Origin: Lactiplantibacillus mudanjiangensis
GTDB lineage: Bacteria > Bacillota > Bacilli > Lactobacillales > Lactobacillaceae
Direction: 5' to 3'
Assembly: GCF_005405385.1 (NCBI RefSeq)
Contig: NZ_BJDY01000004.1
Span: 186,001 to 250,000, forward strand
Length of the DNA: 64,000 bases
Position numbers and translations under genes: made by a program. Below, in pieces: positions 5,206 to 53,106 of the stretch; the first letter of the stretch is position 1, and the number at the start of each line of letters is the position of its first letter. The notes below the pieces were generated by a model. The model was not told where the DNA came from. It saw only the letters and a program-made list of their open reading frames with translations, and did no database searches.

Positions 5206-5270
5206 ATTACTGTTTCTAGGAAATATACCAATCGGAGGAAAAAGACGACCAATACTTAATTGGTTAAATC

Positions 5271-5415
5271 GGAATAGCGCCAGGACTTTAGATTCTAAAG
5301 TTGACGAGGATGATGTTTATCGACAATCGACGGGTGACATCAGGGACTGCACTCTACAGGTCAATTACAAAAACTAGTCGTGAGATTAGTGACAGATATA
5401 TTGACCACGCAGCTA
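5271..5415 (+). ncRNA. glmS ribozyme/riboswitch
   Basis: The leader of glmS contains the conserved glmS catalytic core. Landmarks are the AGCGCCAGGACTT start, the P2 helix (ACTTTAGA/TTCTAAAGT), the invariant GTTGACGAGGATG block, and the TTTATCGA and GACGGGTGAC segments of the double-pseudoknot core, then peripheral helices up to about 5415. By homology, self-cleavage uses glucosamine-6-phosphate as cofactor and would occur between A5276 and G5277. Cleavage destabilises the glmS message, giving product feedback on UDP-GlcNAc synthesis. The end coordinate is approximate because the outer helices vary. Confidence 0.93.
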
Positions 5416-5447
5416 GAAACAATTCAAATACAAAGGATGATTAACTT

Positions 5448-47433: not shown

Positions 47434-47557
47434 ATTTAGCTTAATAAAGAGTTTATTAATTTCGGGCAGAATTGAGTGCACTTTTGGGCATTCCATGGTT
47501 AAATAGAGTTTCGAGATCAACAGAACGGTTATTAAGAATGAGAAGGGAATGACATCG

Positions 47558-48079
47558 ATGGCTTATCGGACACCGCCATTTATATCACCATTTGCAATTG
47601 TGTCAATTGTCCTCGCGTTAGGGGCCACCAACGTGGTTGTGAACAAGACGACCCATACGGTTAATGGGGCCTCAGCAACGAGTTCTAGTGTGGTGCAATC
47701 ATCGACCATGAGTGGCAGCACAAGCAGTAGTGATAAGAAACAGTCAGATGATAAATCAAGTTCTGACGACAGTAGTAAAGATAAAAGTAGCAGTGATTCA
47801 TCGAGTTCAGACTCTAGCTCAGATGATAGTAGTTCGGACGAAAGCTCAAGTAGCTCAAGCGATACGACAGAAGCAAGTAGTTCATCAGCTAAGAAGAACA
47901 GTACAACTGCACAATCTAGTGCCAAGAAGACGTCAAGCAGTACTGAAGATACTACTGACAATGCAGATGAGAGCGGTACTGAAAGTGCTTCGTCTTCATC
48001 GGCCAAGCACAGTTCAACCACAGCGACGACCACTAGCGACACGACGGACGATACTAGTACCGATGACGGAGGCGAATAA
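47558..48079 (+). CDS. Ser/Asp/Thr-rich membrane-anchored protein
   Basis: About 173 residues. One N-terminal hydrophobic helix (about residues 10-28, PFAIVSIVLALGATNVVV) acts as a signal anchor, then almost the whole rest is low-complexity Ser/Asp/Thr/Lys (SDDSSSDESSSSSS). Such sequences are disordered, acidic and likely to be outside the cell, often glycosylated. The ATG at 47558 has GAAGGGA at the right distance; an earlier in-frame ATG touches it. It is followed 3 bp later by a membrane protein with which it is surely co-transcribed. No LPxTG motif. Function unknown. Confidence 0.75.
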   Translation: MAYRTPPFISPFAIVSIVLALGATNVVVNKTTHTVNGASATSSSVVQSSTMSGSTSSSDKKQSDDKSSSDDSSKDKSSSDSSSSDSSSDDSSSDESSSSSSDTTEASSSSAKKNSTTAQSSAKKTSSSTEDTTDNADESGTESASSSSAKHSSTTATTTSDTTDDTSTDDGGE

Positions 48080-50227: not shown

Positions 50228-50256
50228 TTGACAGTCAGAATTTGGATTGTTATAGT
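50228..50256 (+). promoter_or_regulatory. Promoter of the attenuator leader
   Basis: TTGACA (50228-50233), 17-bp spacer, TATAGT (50251-50256): near-consensus. Transcription should begin at about 50263, giving a leader of over 320 nt before the aminotransferase start. Confidence 0.8.
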
Positions 50257-50286
50257 TGGATTATAAATTGATGAGGAGCAAATGCT

Positions 50287-50346
50287 ATGACATTATCGTT
50301 AACTCAAAAACCTAAAACTAGCTTTTACTTTTGGTATTTTCGCTAG
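50287..50346 (+). CDS. Aromatic leader peptide (19 residues)
   Basis: ATG at 50287 is preceded by GAGGAG at 8-nt spacing, an excellent initiation site. The 19 codons end with TAG at 50344. The peptide is MTLSLTQKPKTS followed by FYFWYFR: six aromatic residues in a row (Phe, Tyr, Phe, Trp, Tyr, Phe) just before Arg and the stop. A run like this directly upstream of an aromatic aminotransferase operon is the mark of a translation-coupled attenuator peptide, comparable in logic to pheA or trp leaders. The aromatic codons (50323-50340) fill the loop of a stem ACTAGC/GCTAGT. Against this, a one-base slip after the Ser codon opens a second frame of about 40 hydrophobic codons, so a decayed membrane-protein gene cannot be excluded. 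Confidence 0.65.
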   Translation: MTLSLTQKPKTSFYFWYFR

Positions 50347-50526
50347 TGTTTGTGCCAGCAGCTTTGGTGCAAACACGATTCCGATGTTTGCATCGATGCG
50401 GCTTGCCAAAGGCTATTTGAGTTTGACGGCGCCCATGGATGTTTGAAAATTCCAAGGGCGGCTCCAATTTAAACCAACGTTATTTTTAACGCATCCCTTG
50501 GAAGATTTTCCGGGATGCGTTTTTTG
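50347..50526 (+). promoter_or_regulatory. Attenuator: competing stems, antiterminator and terminator
   Basis: Mutually exclusive pairings follow the leader peptide. TGTTTGTGCCA (50347-50357) can pair with TGGTGCAAACA (50365-50375), and GGTGCAAACA can pair instead with TGTTTGCATC (50385-50394). An anti-antiterminator CGCCC-A-TGGA / TCCA-A-GGGCG (50430-50460) hides the 5' arm of an antiterminator in which GAAAATTCCAAGGG (50445-50458) pairs with CCCTTGGAAGATTTTC (50495-50510). That arm in turn is part of the terminator AACGCATCCC/GGGATGCGTT (50488-50521) with a T tract. The set allows read-through or termination depending on ribosome position. Confidence 0.65.
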
Positions 50527-50585
50527 TTGCAAACAACTGGCCGGTGCTGATGCTGTCCCATCAAAAAAATTTGGAGGCTTGTCCT

Positions 50586-51782
50586 ATGTCTATTGATAGT
50601 CAAAGTTTAGTGCAACACATGAATAACCGTTTAGCAGAAATCCAACCATCTGATATTTTAGCGTTCAATGCGGAAATCGCGAATATTCCAGGAATTGTCC
50701 GTTTGACGTTAGGAGAACCTGATTTCAATACGCCCGACCATGTTAAAGCCGCCGCGATTGACAGTATCAAAAACAATGAAAGCCATTATGCGCCATCAAA
50801 TGGGACAATGGCCTTGCGGGAAGCCGCTGCTAACTTCTTAGCGAAAAAATATGATGTTCATTACGATCCAGCTAGTGAAGTGATTATTACCGCAGGGGCA
50901 ACTGGTGGGATTTACACCGCATTGAGTTCAATTTTAAATCCGGGTGACGAAGTGTTGATTCCAACGCCGATCTTCCCACTTTACATTGCGATCGCAAAGT
51001 TGGCTGGGGCGACACCGGTCTTCATGGATACTTCAAAAAATGGTTTCGTTTTGTCACCAGCACAATTAAAACAAACGTTAGCTGATCACCCTAAAGCTAA
51101 AGCTGTGGTCTTAAACTTCCCTTCGAATCCGACTGGCGTGACTTACCATGCCGATGATTTGAAGGCCTTAGCGGATGTCTTGAAAGATCAACCTGTTTTT
51201 GTGTTATCTGATGAAATTTACAGTGAACTCACCTATGACGCCACGCATGTGTCGATTGCCAACTATTTGCCTGAACAAACGATTTTACTCAATGGGGTCT
51301 CGAAGTCGCATGCGATGACCGGCTGGCGGATTGGGATCATGTGTGCACCTAAAGCGATCACGACGCAATTAGGTAAGATTCATCAATTCACGGTGACAAC
51401 GACAACCGCTAATGCGCAAGCGGCCGCCGCTGAAGCATTAAGCAATGGGTTAGATGATGCGCAAGTGATGAAGCAAGAATATCAAACTCGGCGTGATTAC
51501 TTATATGGCGCGTTGACTAAGTTAGGTTTTGAATCTGCTAAACCAGAAGGGGCGTTCTACTTATTCAGTAAAATCCCTGCTGGTTTACCACAAGATAGTA
51601 TGGCCTTTTGTCGTGAATTAGCCCATGATGCGCGTGTTGCCTTAATTCCTGGGAGTTCATTTGGCCCTGGTGGTGAAGGATACGTTCGGATTAGTTATGC
51701 AGCTTCAATGGCTGATTTACAAACGGCGGTTGAACGAATTGGGCAATATGTCACTGAAAAAGCCACAACGGAGGCTAAGTAA
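50586..51782 (+). CDS. araT: PLP aminotransferase, aromatic type (AraT/PatA-like)
   Basis: A 398-residue class I aminotransferase. Matching parts are LTLGEPDFNTPDHVK, SHYAPSNGTMALREA, the NFPSNPTGVTY block, VLSDEIYSELTY, the PLP-lysine segment NGVSKSHAMTGWRIG and RISYA near the end. The pattern is that of lactic acid bacterial AraT, which transaminates Phe, Tyr and Trp with 2-oxoglutarate, but other substrates are possible. The true start is ATG 50586 after GGAGG. It precedes a D-hydroxyacid dehydrogenase with a one-base overlap and sits behind a leader that codes for an aromatic-rich peptide, which supports the aromatic assignment. Confidence 0.85.
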   Translation: MSIDSQSLVQHMNNRLAEIQPSDILAFNAEIANIPGIVRLTLGEPDFNTPDHVKAAAIDSIKNNESHYAPSNGTMALREAAANFLAKKYDVHYDPASEVIITAGATGGIYTALSSILNPGDEVLIPTPIFPLYIAIAKLAGATPVFMDTSKNGFVLSPAQLKQTLADHPKAKAVVLNFPSNPTGVTYHADDLKALADVLKDQPVFVLSDEIYSELTYDATHVSIANYLPEQTILLNGVSKSHAMTGWRIGIMCAPKAITTQLGKIHQFTVTTTTANAQAAAAEALSNGLDDAQVMKQEYQTRRDYLYGALTKLGFESAKPEGAFYLFSKIPAGLPQDSMAFCRELAHDARVALIPGSSFGPGGEGYVRISYAASMADLQTAVERIGQYVTEKATTEAK

Positions 51783-52777
51783 TGACTAAAATTTTAATGT
51801 ATAGTGTGCGGGATGATGAAGAAGCGGCAATTAAAGCCTGGGCAACCAAACATGACGTACAAGTTGATACGAACGCGTTAGAATTCCATCCAAAAACTGC
51901 CAACCTTGCTAAAGGTTACGATGGTTTAGTGATTCAACAACGCAGTGCAATTGGTGACGATCCTAACGTTTATCAACAACTAGCGGACTATGGCTTGAAA
52001 CAATTGACGAGTCGGACAGCTGGTGTGGATACGATCGATATTCCAGCGGCCAAAGCTGCCGGGTTAACCGTGACGAATGTTCCAGCTTACTCACCAAATT
52101 CGGTCGCCGAAATGGCGGTGACCCAAACGATGCGTTTGATTCGCAATTTAGAGTTGTTTGATCAACGGATTGCCAATCAAGATTTCCGTTGGGCTGGGTT
52201 ACAGGCCCGTGAAATTCGGTCATTAACCGTTGGTGTCATTGGTGCTGGTCGGATTGGCGGAACGGTTGCCAAATTGTTCCATGGCTTAGGTGCCAAAGTT
52301 ATCGCCTATGACGTGGTGCGCCGTCCAGAATTAGAATCAGTTTTAACTTATGTGGCCTCGAAAGAAGAACTGTTAAAACAGGCTGATGTCGTGACCTTGC
52401 ATGTTGATCTAAATGACACGTCTAAAGCGTTGATTGATGCGGAAGCCTTAAGTCTGATGAAACCCGATGCGTTCATCATTAATGCATCGCGTGGCCCCGT
52501 GATTGTGACTAAGGCTTTAGTCGCAGCTTTAAAGGCAGGTAAATTAGCGGGGGCTGCTTTGGATACGGTTGAAGGGGAAGAAACGTTATTCAACCAAAAT
52601 CATCAAGGTGAACCCTTACCGGATGCCTTGGTCAGTCAACTACTACAAATGCCTAATGTGATTTTGACGCCACATGTCGGGTTTTACACGAACTTGGCCG
52701 TGCAAAACATGGTTGATATCAGTCTTGATGATGTGTTAACCATTATTAATGGTGGTCAAACTGAACACGCTTTTTAA
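51782..52777 (+). CDS. D-2-hydroxyacid dehydrogenase
   Basis: A 331-residue NAD-dependent dehydrogenase of the D-LDH/HicD family that reduces 2-oxoacids to D-2-hydroxyacids. The Rossmann loop is GAGRIGG; catalytic residues appear as Arg in NASRGPVI, Glu in TVEGEE and His in TPHVGFYTN. It overlaps the aminotransferase stop by one base (TAATG), so the two enzymes work together: transamination of an aromatic amino acid gives phenylpyruvate or similar, which this enzyme can reduce to phenyllactate (a known antifungal product of lactobacilli). Which oxoacid it prefers is inferred from context. A plain D-lactate dehydrogenase role is an alternative. Confidence 0.88.
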   Translation: MTKILMYSVRDDEEAAIKAWATKHDVQVDTNALEFHPKTANLAKGYDGLVIQQRSAIGDDPNVYQQLADYGLKQLTSRTAGVDTIDIPAAKAAGLTVTNVPAYSPNSVAEMAVTQTMRLIRNLELFDQRIANQDFRWAGLQAREIRSLTVGVIGAGRIGGTVAKLFHGLGAKVIAYDVVRRPELESVLTYVASKEELLKQADVVTLHVDLNDTSKALIDAEALSLMKPDAFIINASRGPVIVTKALVAALKAGKLAGAALDTVEGEETLFNQNHQGEPLPDALVSQLLQMPNVILTPHVGFYTNLAVQNMVDISLDDVLTIINGGQTEHAF

Positions 52778-52834: not shown

Positions 52835-53106
52835 CTAAAGGTTGAAAGCTATTTTTAGCAATGATCGTTGATATGATAGGCGTACTTGCCACCTACCGTT
52901 CGCCCACATTGAGCCGGAACGCTGTGGACGACTTTTGAGACTAGCGGTTTTGGCTAGACTCAAAAGCGAGGTGGAAGCCCGCACTGTGGCTGGAACCGGT
53001 CCCCACAGCCGGCAGAATCGCTGGCTGGCGTAGGTGATCAATTTAGCATAACTTGAGTCAATTATAGTAAAGCTTTTACCGTCATACTTTAACTTTCAAT
53101 CTTTAG
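52835..53106 (-). mobile_element. Repeat family 1, copy H (deleted by microhomology)
   Basis: A 272-bp copy in reverse orientation with both terminal repeats (CTAAAGGTTGAAAG left, CTTTCAATCTTTAG right, one change). The middle of the element is missing: the sequence runs from CCGGAACGCTGTGG directly into ACGACTTTTGAG, and both breakpoints in full copies have TGTGG, so the deletion used 5-bp microhomology. No clean target duplication remains. Its right terminal repeat provides the last codons of the small zinc-ribbon gene. Confidence 0.82.

Follow-up and report, generated by a model that had tools for sequence, protein, structure and literature searches.

A putative leader-peptide attenuator with aromatic control codons before an aminotransferase-dehydrogenase operon and its relatives in Lactobacillales

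Why should a short open reading frame (ORF) with six consecutive aromatic codons stand before an aminotransferase-dehydrogenase operon? The question is raised by a stretch of 64,000 nucleotides (nt) from Lactiplantibacillus mudanjiangensis (contig NZ_BJDY01000004.1, positions 186,001 to 250,000; hereafter the window). Here a leader RNA precedes plus-strand genes for a class I/II aminotransferase (AT; 398 residues, 50586-51782) and a D-2-hydroxyacid dehydrogenase (DH; 331 residues, 51782-52777, with a one-base overlap with the AT stop codon), both of which presumably act on aromatic substrates. A sequence-only reading had proposed that ribosomes on the aromatic codons control the operon by attenuation, and support for that proposal comes from conservation, from compensated codon changes and from folding models in which a ribosome is moved along the codons. 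The leader is very probably a ribosome-mediated transcription attenuator opened by aromatic starvation. We also consider it likely, if somewhat less so, that the leader is part of a Lactobacillales-wide aromatic attenuation regulon besides the T-boxes. This regulon would consist of one RNA family whose control codons double as a paired segment. Codon 4 would be structurally free (Trp, Ser, Arg, Lys, Tyr, Gly or Leu) with a matching partner motif, and the position of the ribosome would be passed along a relay of four to six helices, lengthened by pairs with its sign kept. It would control shikimate-pathway genes, TrpX-type uptake and the AT-DH operon, and part of it is catalogued as a small RNA.

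All parts of the leader lie on the plus strand. A sigma-70-type promoter with 11 of 12 consensus letters (-35 TTGACA, 50228-50233; -10 TATAGT, 50251-50256; 17-nt spacer) is followed by a Shine-Dalgarno sequence, GAGGAG (50273-50278), 8 nt ahead of an ATG at 50287. The leader peptide ORF (50287-50346) has 19 codons, MTLSLTQKPKTSFYFWYFR, and a TAG stop, and its control codons Phe-Tyr-Phe-Trp-Tyr-Phe (50323-50340) are followed by one Arg and the stop. Within the control codons, segment 0 (CTTTTGGTA, 50328-50336) has as its partner a downstream motif M (TTGCCAAAGG, 50403-50412). Segment 1 (GTGTTTGTGCC, 50346-50356) pairs with segment 2 (GGTGCAAACAC, 50366-50376) in a stem of 50346-50357 with 50365-50376, which encloses the stem read earlier at 50347-50357 with 50365-50375. 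Segment 2 can also pair, via 50368-50375, with segment 3 (TGTTTGCATCGATG, 50385-50398; through 50385-50392), and segment 3 can pair through 50391-50398 with segment 4 (CCCATGGATG, 50432-50441). Segment 4 is the 5' arm of an anti-antiterminator (50432-50439 with 50451-50458, one A-A mismatch). The 3' arm of this hairpin, segment 5 (TTCCAAGGGCGG, 50450-50461), is at the same time the 5' arm of an antiterminator (50450-50458 with 50495-50503). Segment 6 (CGCATCCCTTGGAA, 50490-50503) is shared between the antiterminator, as 3' arm, and the intrinsic terminator (50488-50526), as 5' arm; the terminator stem (50488-50521; -19.4 kcal/mol) has the 3' arm GGGATGCG at 50512-50519, and a T tract follows.

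The promoter, ribosome binding site, peptide, competing stems, anti-antiterminator, antiterminator and terminator had all been picked out from the letters, and each was recovered. The same holds for a stem that loops out the aromatic codons (50317-50347), whose 6-nt arms ACTAGC (50317-50322) and GCTAGT (50342-50347) pair across the genus and are broken in the sister-genus loci L157 and L158. A proposed link between a TGTTTG in the anti-antiterminator loop and an upstream CAAACA fared worse: the letters are present in the window, but the loop varies among relatives. The signal seems to pass via the mutually exclusive helices and the codon-containing helix, not via this loop-to-arm link. A consensus scan, which is weak evidence, found no promoter-like site on the plus strand between 50527 and 50586.

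These parts suggest a relay. Without a ribosome, the control codons of segment 0 would pair with motif M. When charged tRNA is scarce, the ribosome would stall on the aromatic codons and cover segment 0 while segment 1 stays free; helices 1:2, then 3:4 and, in the long form, 5:6 would form, holding the terminator 5' arm and allowing read-through. With charged aromatic tRNAs, a ribosome at the stop codon would cover segment 1 too, and 2:3, 4:5 and the terminator would form and end transcription. Since stalling would free segment 1, a shortage of Phe, of Tyr or, with most AT-DH leaders, of Trp would be expected to open the operon. The relay appears to have five segments in many genera and seven in Lactiplantibacillus, and because it is lengthened by pairs, the two added segments would preserve its sign. 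The leader has a conserved ORF with a ribosome binding site, a run of cognate codons and a mutually exclusive terminator and antiterminator, as attenuators do. We infer translation of the peptide, stalling, the sign in vivo and the benefit to the cell, and the folding models lead us to predict starvation rather than excess as the on-signal.

Within the genus, leader DNA was found in 21 of 21 Lactiplantibacillus genomes, the source genome included. Each has an ATG-initiated ORF, 19-20 codons long, whose peptide terminates in TSFYFWYFR or ASFYFWYFR (21/21), which answers a question about conservation of the aromatic run left by the sequence-only reading, and the promoter and Shine-Dalgarno sequence are kept in the 21-genome alignment. 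The genus alignment has a 3-nt indel inside the ORF; about 115 nt of non-coding DNA 3' of the ORF are largely invariant, and the stretch before the AT gene varies, with indels of lengths not divisible by three. When the window leader, 20 relatives from the genus and two from a sister genus were aligned, all 11 pairs of stem 1:2 were kept in 23 of 23 leaders and the terminator stem 6:7 showed covariation.

The pairing of control codons with motif M offers a more demanding comparison across genera. The core of the run, C UUU UGG U(A), is complementary to (A)CCAAAAG downstream, and leaders with other codons carry other forms of M: ACUUAAGG or ACUUGAGG for UUU AAG, GCGAAAG for UUU CGC, AACGAAAG or AAAUGAAAG for UUU CGU and AUAAGAG for UUU UAU. 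For UUC UGG, M is CCAGAAG in L233. Over 13 codon types, native codon:M duplexes average -7.8 kcal/mol, compared with -5.1 when the codons are swapped between types; for the UUU UGG type (77 leaders), the values are -9.2 and -4.9. The sister loci L157 and L158 differ at one base, and the change is compensated in 0:M. An alignment of 34 leaders (33 distinct) yielded 97.2% paired cells for helices 0:M, 2:3 and 4:5, where slid controls gave 32-42%. In these helices 31 cells had changed on both sides, against 9.8 +/- 4.5 after shuffling (0 of 500 shuffles as high). For helices 1:2 and 3:4, 91.6% of cells were paired and the covariation score was 0.108 versus 0.089 (1/500). As far as alignments can tell, the control codons double as a base-paired RNA segment, with codon changes compensated in M.

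What remains constant in the run is its aromatic character. We tabulated 102 AT leaders, without five that are read in another frame, using a peptide pattern that restricts codons 1-5 and fixes Phe at codon 6. Phe or Tyr fills codon 1 in 100 of them and codon 5 in 101; codon 6 is TTT in 58 and TTC in 44, its identity as Phe in 102 of 102 being by construction, since the pattern demands it. At codon 4, within the helix, 84 leaders have Trp and the other 18 have Arg, Tyr, Lys, Gly or Leu. For the leaders of Rfam family RF02863, introduced below, only the core was used to set the reading: Tyr or Phe occupies codon 2 in 89 of 89, likewise codon 5 (TAT 53, TAC 30, TTT 3, TTC 3) and codon 6, and codon 1 in just 68 of 89. 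Because aromatic identity stays while codons vary, and codon 4 varies, Phe and Tyr seem to be the fixed part of the signal, with Trp optional.

We then folded leaders with a ribosome placed on successive codons, removing the covered RNA up to 12 nt beyond the first base of the A site (an assumed footprint). The readout was, for a transcript that stops short of the terminator 3' arm, the cost of opening the 5' arm. The statistic T is the mean over run codons 1-4 minus the mean of the no-ribosome and stop-codon states; it was preferred to counts of run states above the other two, which take the best of four positions and are hence biased. As controls, the part of each leader behind the run was shuffled 8 times with its dinucleotides preserved. 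In 59 short leaders, the mean cost was 6.4 without a ribosome and 5.3 with a ribosome at the stop codon, and rose to 10.5-12.2 with the A site on codons 1-4, peaking at 12.2 on codon 4 (usually Trp) before falling to 10.7 at codon 5 and 7.5 at codon 6. Shuffled leaders gave a flat profile of 5.6-5.8. T was 5.48, as against -0.27 to 0.20 for shuffles, and was positive in 54 of the 59 and above all 8 shuffles in 47. Stepping by two bases placed the antitermination window of short leaders at about 14 nt, near the length of the run.

The longer leaders follow in weaker form. Nineteen other long leaders had a T of 1.79 (about 0.3 shuffled; 16 positive, 9 above all shuffles). Over 116 leader-terminator pairs, the terminator arm went up in 36 and down in 7 in one scan, and in a second scan 77 were above +1 and 9 below -1 kcal/mol. 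This readout is clear in short leaders and inconsistent in long ones, Lactiplantibacillus included, and segment 4 was therefore used for Lactiplantibacillus, a choice made post hoc, after the terminator-arm result. With it, 22 leaders of Lactiplantibacillus and the sister genus had a T of 2.04 (about 0 shuffled), positive in 22 of 22. Antitermination only with a ribosome on the control codons is thus predicted by these models for the group, and weakly for the window. A separate duplex search for the spacing of segment 1 went unused, as its search window began at the Trp codon and matches reached the edge.

How closely is the leader tied to this operon? At E up to 1e-150, the AT is found in 120 of 397 genomes of the family and 20 of 40 genera. 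We took 92 further places outside the genus, excluding one whose start is 145 bases from the end of its contig, and drew relatives also from the best 80 of at least 588 matches; after removal of 14 loci judged duplicates, 187 loci besides the window were tabulated. In 103 of these a DH gene lies on the same strand within 600 bases of the AT gene. A strict complement rule detected the leader in 85 of the 103, and 11 more were recognized by eye (L157, L158, L161, L167, L198, L200, L204, L209, L216, L221 and L222); three others are divergent candidates (two Bifidobacterium, one Periweissella). Among the 84 loci without DH, 13 have the leader, 68 have none and three matches (L062, L064, L105) were judged by eye to be chance. 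No cis-regulatory RNA reached its Rfam gathering score among 20 AT-paralogue loci. The leader accompanies mainly the AT-DH operon and not AT paralogues; among loci with DH outside Lactiplantibacillus, it is present in 76 of 83 (strict rule and eye).

Several individual loci deserve mention. The Bifidobacterium loci L043 and L044 have a similar AT-DH pair and a short ORF, MQGTRFTYWWHGFDL, with a Shine-Dalgarno sequence about 180 nt before the AT gene; no terminator was found for this candidate. In L193, L205, L228 and L187, a few hundred bases of repeat-like DNA appear, by eye, to be inserted between leader or terminator and the AT gene. The Sporolactobacillus leaders L037, L040 and L041 have two successive terminators ahead of the AT gene. 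At L173, L058 and L255, the peptide that ends just upstream of the operon looks by eye like what we take to be a tryptophanyl-tRNA synthetase. A search with the DNA pattern of the aromatic run was too noisy to use, matching 377 of 397 genomes with reversed-pattern controls alike; in the source genome its sole other exact match lies, by eye, inside a long gene.

The leader extends beyond AT-DH operons through Rfam RF02863 (Enterococcus sRNA 2410). The window leader has no match to RF02863 at E up to 10; a Bombilactobacillus leader (L256) matches it over the leader at 40.8 bits, below the cut-off of 61. A search for RF02863 at E up to 1e-3 matched 214 of 395 Lactobacillales genomes, 98 of them above the cut-off, and 52 of 80 genera; 14 control genomes gave no match. 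We read 90 of its loci (L264-L353), the 30 best and 60 chosen for spread. An aromatic run stands in frame ahead of a stop codon in 89 of them, and all 89 have a terminator. First genes were scanned at 64 loci (59 of the 60 spread loci, L331 being left out, and 5 of the best 30): 39 encode ABC_sub_bind proteins, 20 shikimate dehydrogenase, 3 DAHP synthase, 1 chorismate synthase and 1 prephenate dehydratase. Three ABC_sub_bind-type proteins that were tested match NCBIfam TrpX below its cut-off. With a ribosome placed on these 89 leaders, T was 1.70 compared with about 0 (65 positive; 52 above all 3 shuffles). First genes for aromatic biosynthesis or TrpX-like transport fit an operon that is on when starved.

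A family model built from 20 leaders (the window, 17 from the genus and two from the sister genus) matched, at E up to 1, 32 of 32 RF02863 loci, 28 of 33 AT-DH leaders from other genera and 0 of 15 paralogue controls, and at E up to 0.01, 30, 26 and 0, respectively. On these matches, RF02863 and the Lactiplantibacillus-type leaders are one family of common descent. The two share the same kind of aromatic run (such as YYFSYFR), the same codon:M helix (CUUUAGC/GGCUAAAG) and a similar extra hairpin. They differ at codon 4, which is Ser AGC in 89 of 89 RF02863 leaders (AGC being part of the anchor) and mostly Trp in AT leaders, with M differing accordingly, and in their first genes, which for RF02863 are TrpX-like, aroE, DAHP synthase, aroC and pheA; RF02863 is moreover filed as a small RNA. 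The leader is not confined to the AT-DH setting described for it from sequence: across Lactobacillales, members of its family also stand before genes of the shikimate pathway and genes for chorismate synthase, prephenate dehydratase and TrpX-like transporters. The RF02863-type leader of L331 is followed by an ORF of 759 residues whose amino acid binding-protein domain is of another kind.

Other explanations of the leader have to be set against these data. The RNA could be a free-standing small RNA, as RF02863 is filed, with an incidental ORF. The available parts of the original report describe sRNA_2410 of E. faecium Aus0004 as 195 nt by RNA-seq, with two transcripts on Northern blots, and a search of that text for leader, attenuat and T-box found nothing (PMC5593968). 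A terminated leader would give the same blot, however, and with in-frame aromatic runs at 89 of 90 loci, a terminator before the gene at these 89, and scanned first genes that are all for aromatic biosynthesis or TrpX-like, we regard this as very improbable. Scarcely credible is a decayed membrane-protein gene or chance, which the hydrophobic peptide and a second short frame had brought up: the indels behind the ORF are not multiples of three, which leaves a decayed gene unsupported, the ORF end is invariant in 21 of 21 genomes, and the helices covary.

Two further possibilities accept the leader peptide and change what it senses. In an arrest of the TnaC kind, a peptide-held ribosome, a free aromatic compound would hold the nascent peptide at the stop codon, covering segment 1 and causing termination, with decoding speed irrelevant. 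A ribosome at the stop codon does yield the terminating fold, and QLN ahead of the run, seen in 44 of the 87 AT leaders from other genera and at 64 of 89 RF02863 loci, hints at a role for the peptide. Yet QLN is missing in Lactiplantibacillus and about half of the other AT leaders, Phe and Tyr exchange freely at codons 1 and 5, the stop codon follows the run at varying distances (Arg-stop, Gln-Ser-stop, His-Glu-Cys-Leu-stop) and the antitermination window coincides with the codon run, so that such an arrest seems unlikely. More doubtful still is the reverse sign, in which aromatic excess opens the operon, as for catabolism to phenyllactate. The Sporolactobacillus inulinus DH behind the leader is identical over 335 residues to 4XKJ (DLDH744), and the sections available on this enzyme report formation of D-phenyllactate from phenylpyruvate (Km 3.32 mM) and glutamate dehydrogenase activity (PMC4580590). 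The window DH is about 66% identical to the DH of L040. In the same organism, according to a second report, phenylpyruvate is reduced mostly by a 341-residue D-LDH1, and D-LDH3, of 335 residues, has weak activity on both phenylpyruvate and pyruvate (PMC9618312). Folding, on the other side, favours read-through with the ribosome on the run, and the same RNA family stands before biosynthesis and TrpX-like transport genes; an early idea that excess opens the operon was dropped after the ribosome-position scans.

Attenuation opened by starvation, the reading that we prefer, also has observations that weigh against it. In the window itself, opening segment 4 costs 1.6 without a ribosome, 3.3 with the ribosome at Trp and 0.8 at the stop codon, a weak response that points in the right direction and is small, and the terminator arm responds without clear change (4.9-6.2 throughout). 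Only 12 of the 22 Lactiplantibacillus-type leaders exceed all 8 shuffles; their run state (3.6-3.7) is barely above the shuffles (3.3-3.6), and the contrast comes from low no-ribosome and stop-codon states (1.3 and 1.9) rather than from a run state that is clearly high. T is at or below 0 in 5 of 59 short, 3 of 19 other long and 24 of 89 RF02863 leaders, and equilibrium folding ignores kinetics. As to pairing, 3 of the 13 codon types do no better than swapped, these being five leaders whose frame was mis-set in the comparison (three from Sporolactobacillus, L161 and L241), and for UUU UAU the native gain is merely 0.7 kcal/mol. The UUC UGG leaders L238, L243, L248, L249 and L254 lack the CCAGAAG motif and break 0:M at two positions. 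In helices 1:2 and 3:4, two-sided changes are no more frequent than after shuffling (400 of 500 shuffles reach the observed number), and in Lactiplantibacillus helix 3:4 is invariant, with a G-G mismatch in 23 of 23. Operons without a leader, which the sequence-only reading had named as telling against it, do exist: 4 of the 103 AT-DH loci (L159, L160, L058 and L255) have none. Each of these four has, a short way upstream, the end of a different ORF that looks by eye like a transporter gene or trpS. Finally, induction of a DH by starvation is metabolically odd. The AT-DH pair could turn aromatic keto acids, or hydroxy acids with the DH reversed, into amino acids; alternatively, by analogy with DLDH744, an amination activity could feed the AT.

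The surroundings of the leader add the following. A HAD-type hydrolase gene lies upstream in opposite orientation, and a long imperfect inverted repeat, apparently non-coding by eye, lies behind the operon at 52870-53040. Elsewhere in the window are a glmS ribozyme (RF00234, 96.9 bits, 5265-5416) and a low-complexity ORF rich in Ser and Asp (47549-48079). A leader-model search found a single copy in the 3.29 Mb genome; the E-value of 3e-29 at the window arises by construction, because the model includes the window leader.

If true, this reading makes leader-peptide attenuation a major form of aromatic control in lactic acid bacteria, where such control is usually explained by T-boxes, and gives RF02863 a function. 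It would also allow predictions of the conditions under which lactobacilli of food and gut express genes associated with aromatic keto and hydroxy acids, and the compensated codon changes form a natural set for studying how attenuators evolve. A literature search, thin in its coverage of subscription journals, returned no prior description of an aromatic leader of this kind, and four leader peptide strings had no occurrence in the full texts searched.

Among known systems, the trp, pheA and pheST leaders of enterobacteria are peptide-based attenuators. They resemble the Lactobacillales leader in having an ORF with a run of cognate codons, control codons within a pairing segment, and alternative antiterminator and terminator; the Lactobacillales leader differs in its four to six mutually exclusive helices, where enterobacteria have three, in its mixed Phe/Tyr/Trp run and in codon 4, which acts as a structural wild card. 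The window leader has no match at E up to 10 to Rfam Phe_leader, Trp_leader, His_leader or any other leader.

Within Firmicutes, His-leader attenuators have been predicted in the Bacillus cereus group, Peptostreptococcaceae and Erysipelotrichales; they too would be ribosome-mediated, and differ in their histidine codons and lineages, the passages on His leaders listing none from Lactobacillales (PMC9413887). The uORFC-13-1 motif before aroF in Acholeplasma has been proposed to combine an upstream ORF that has a Phe codon with a terminator; it belongs to another lineage, and its U run codes for at least one Phe, a YYF-x-YF run not being found in the parts of the source available (PMC8632094). 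The T-box (RF00230), which has 37 matches in the source genome, 11 of them over the cut-off, and none in the window leader, likewise senses tRNA charging before amino acid genes. The T-box binds tRNA directly, whereas the aromatic leader would sense it through the ribosome.

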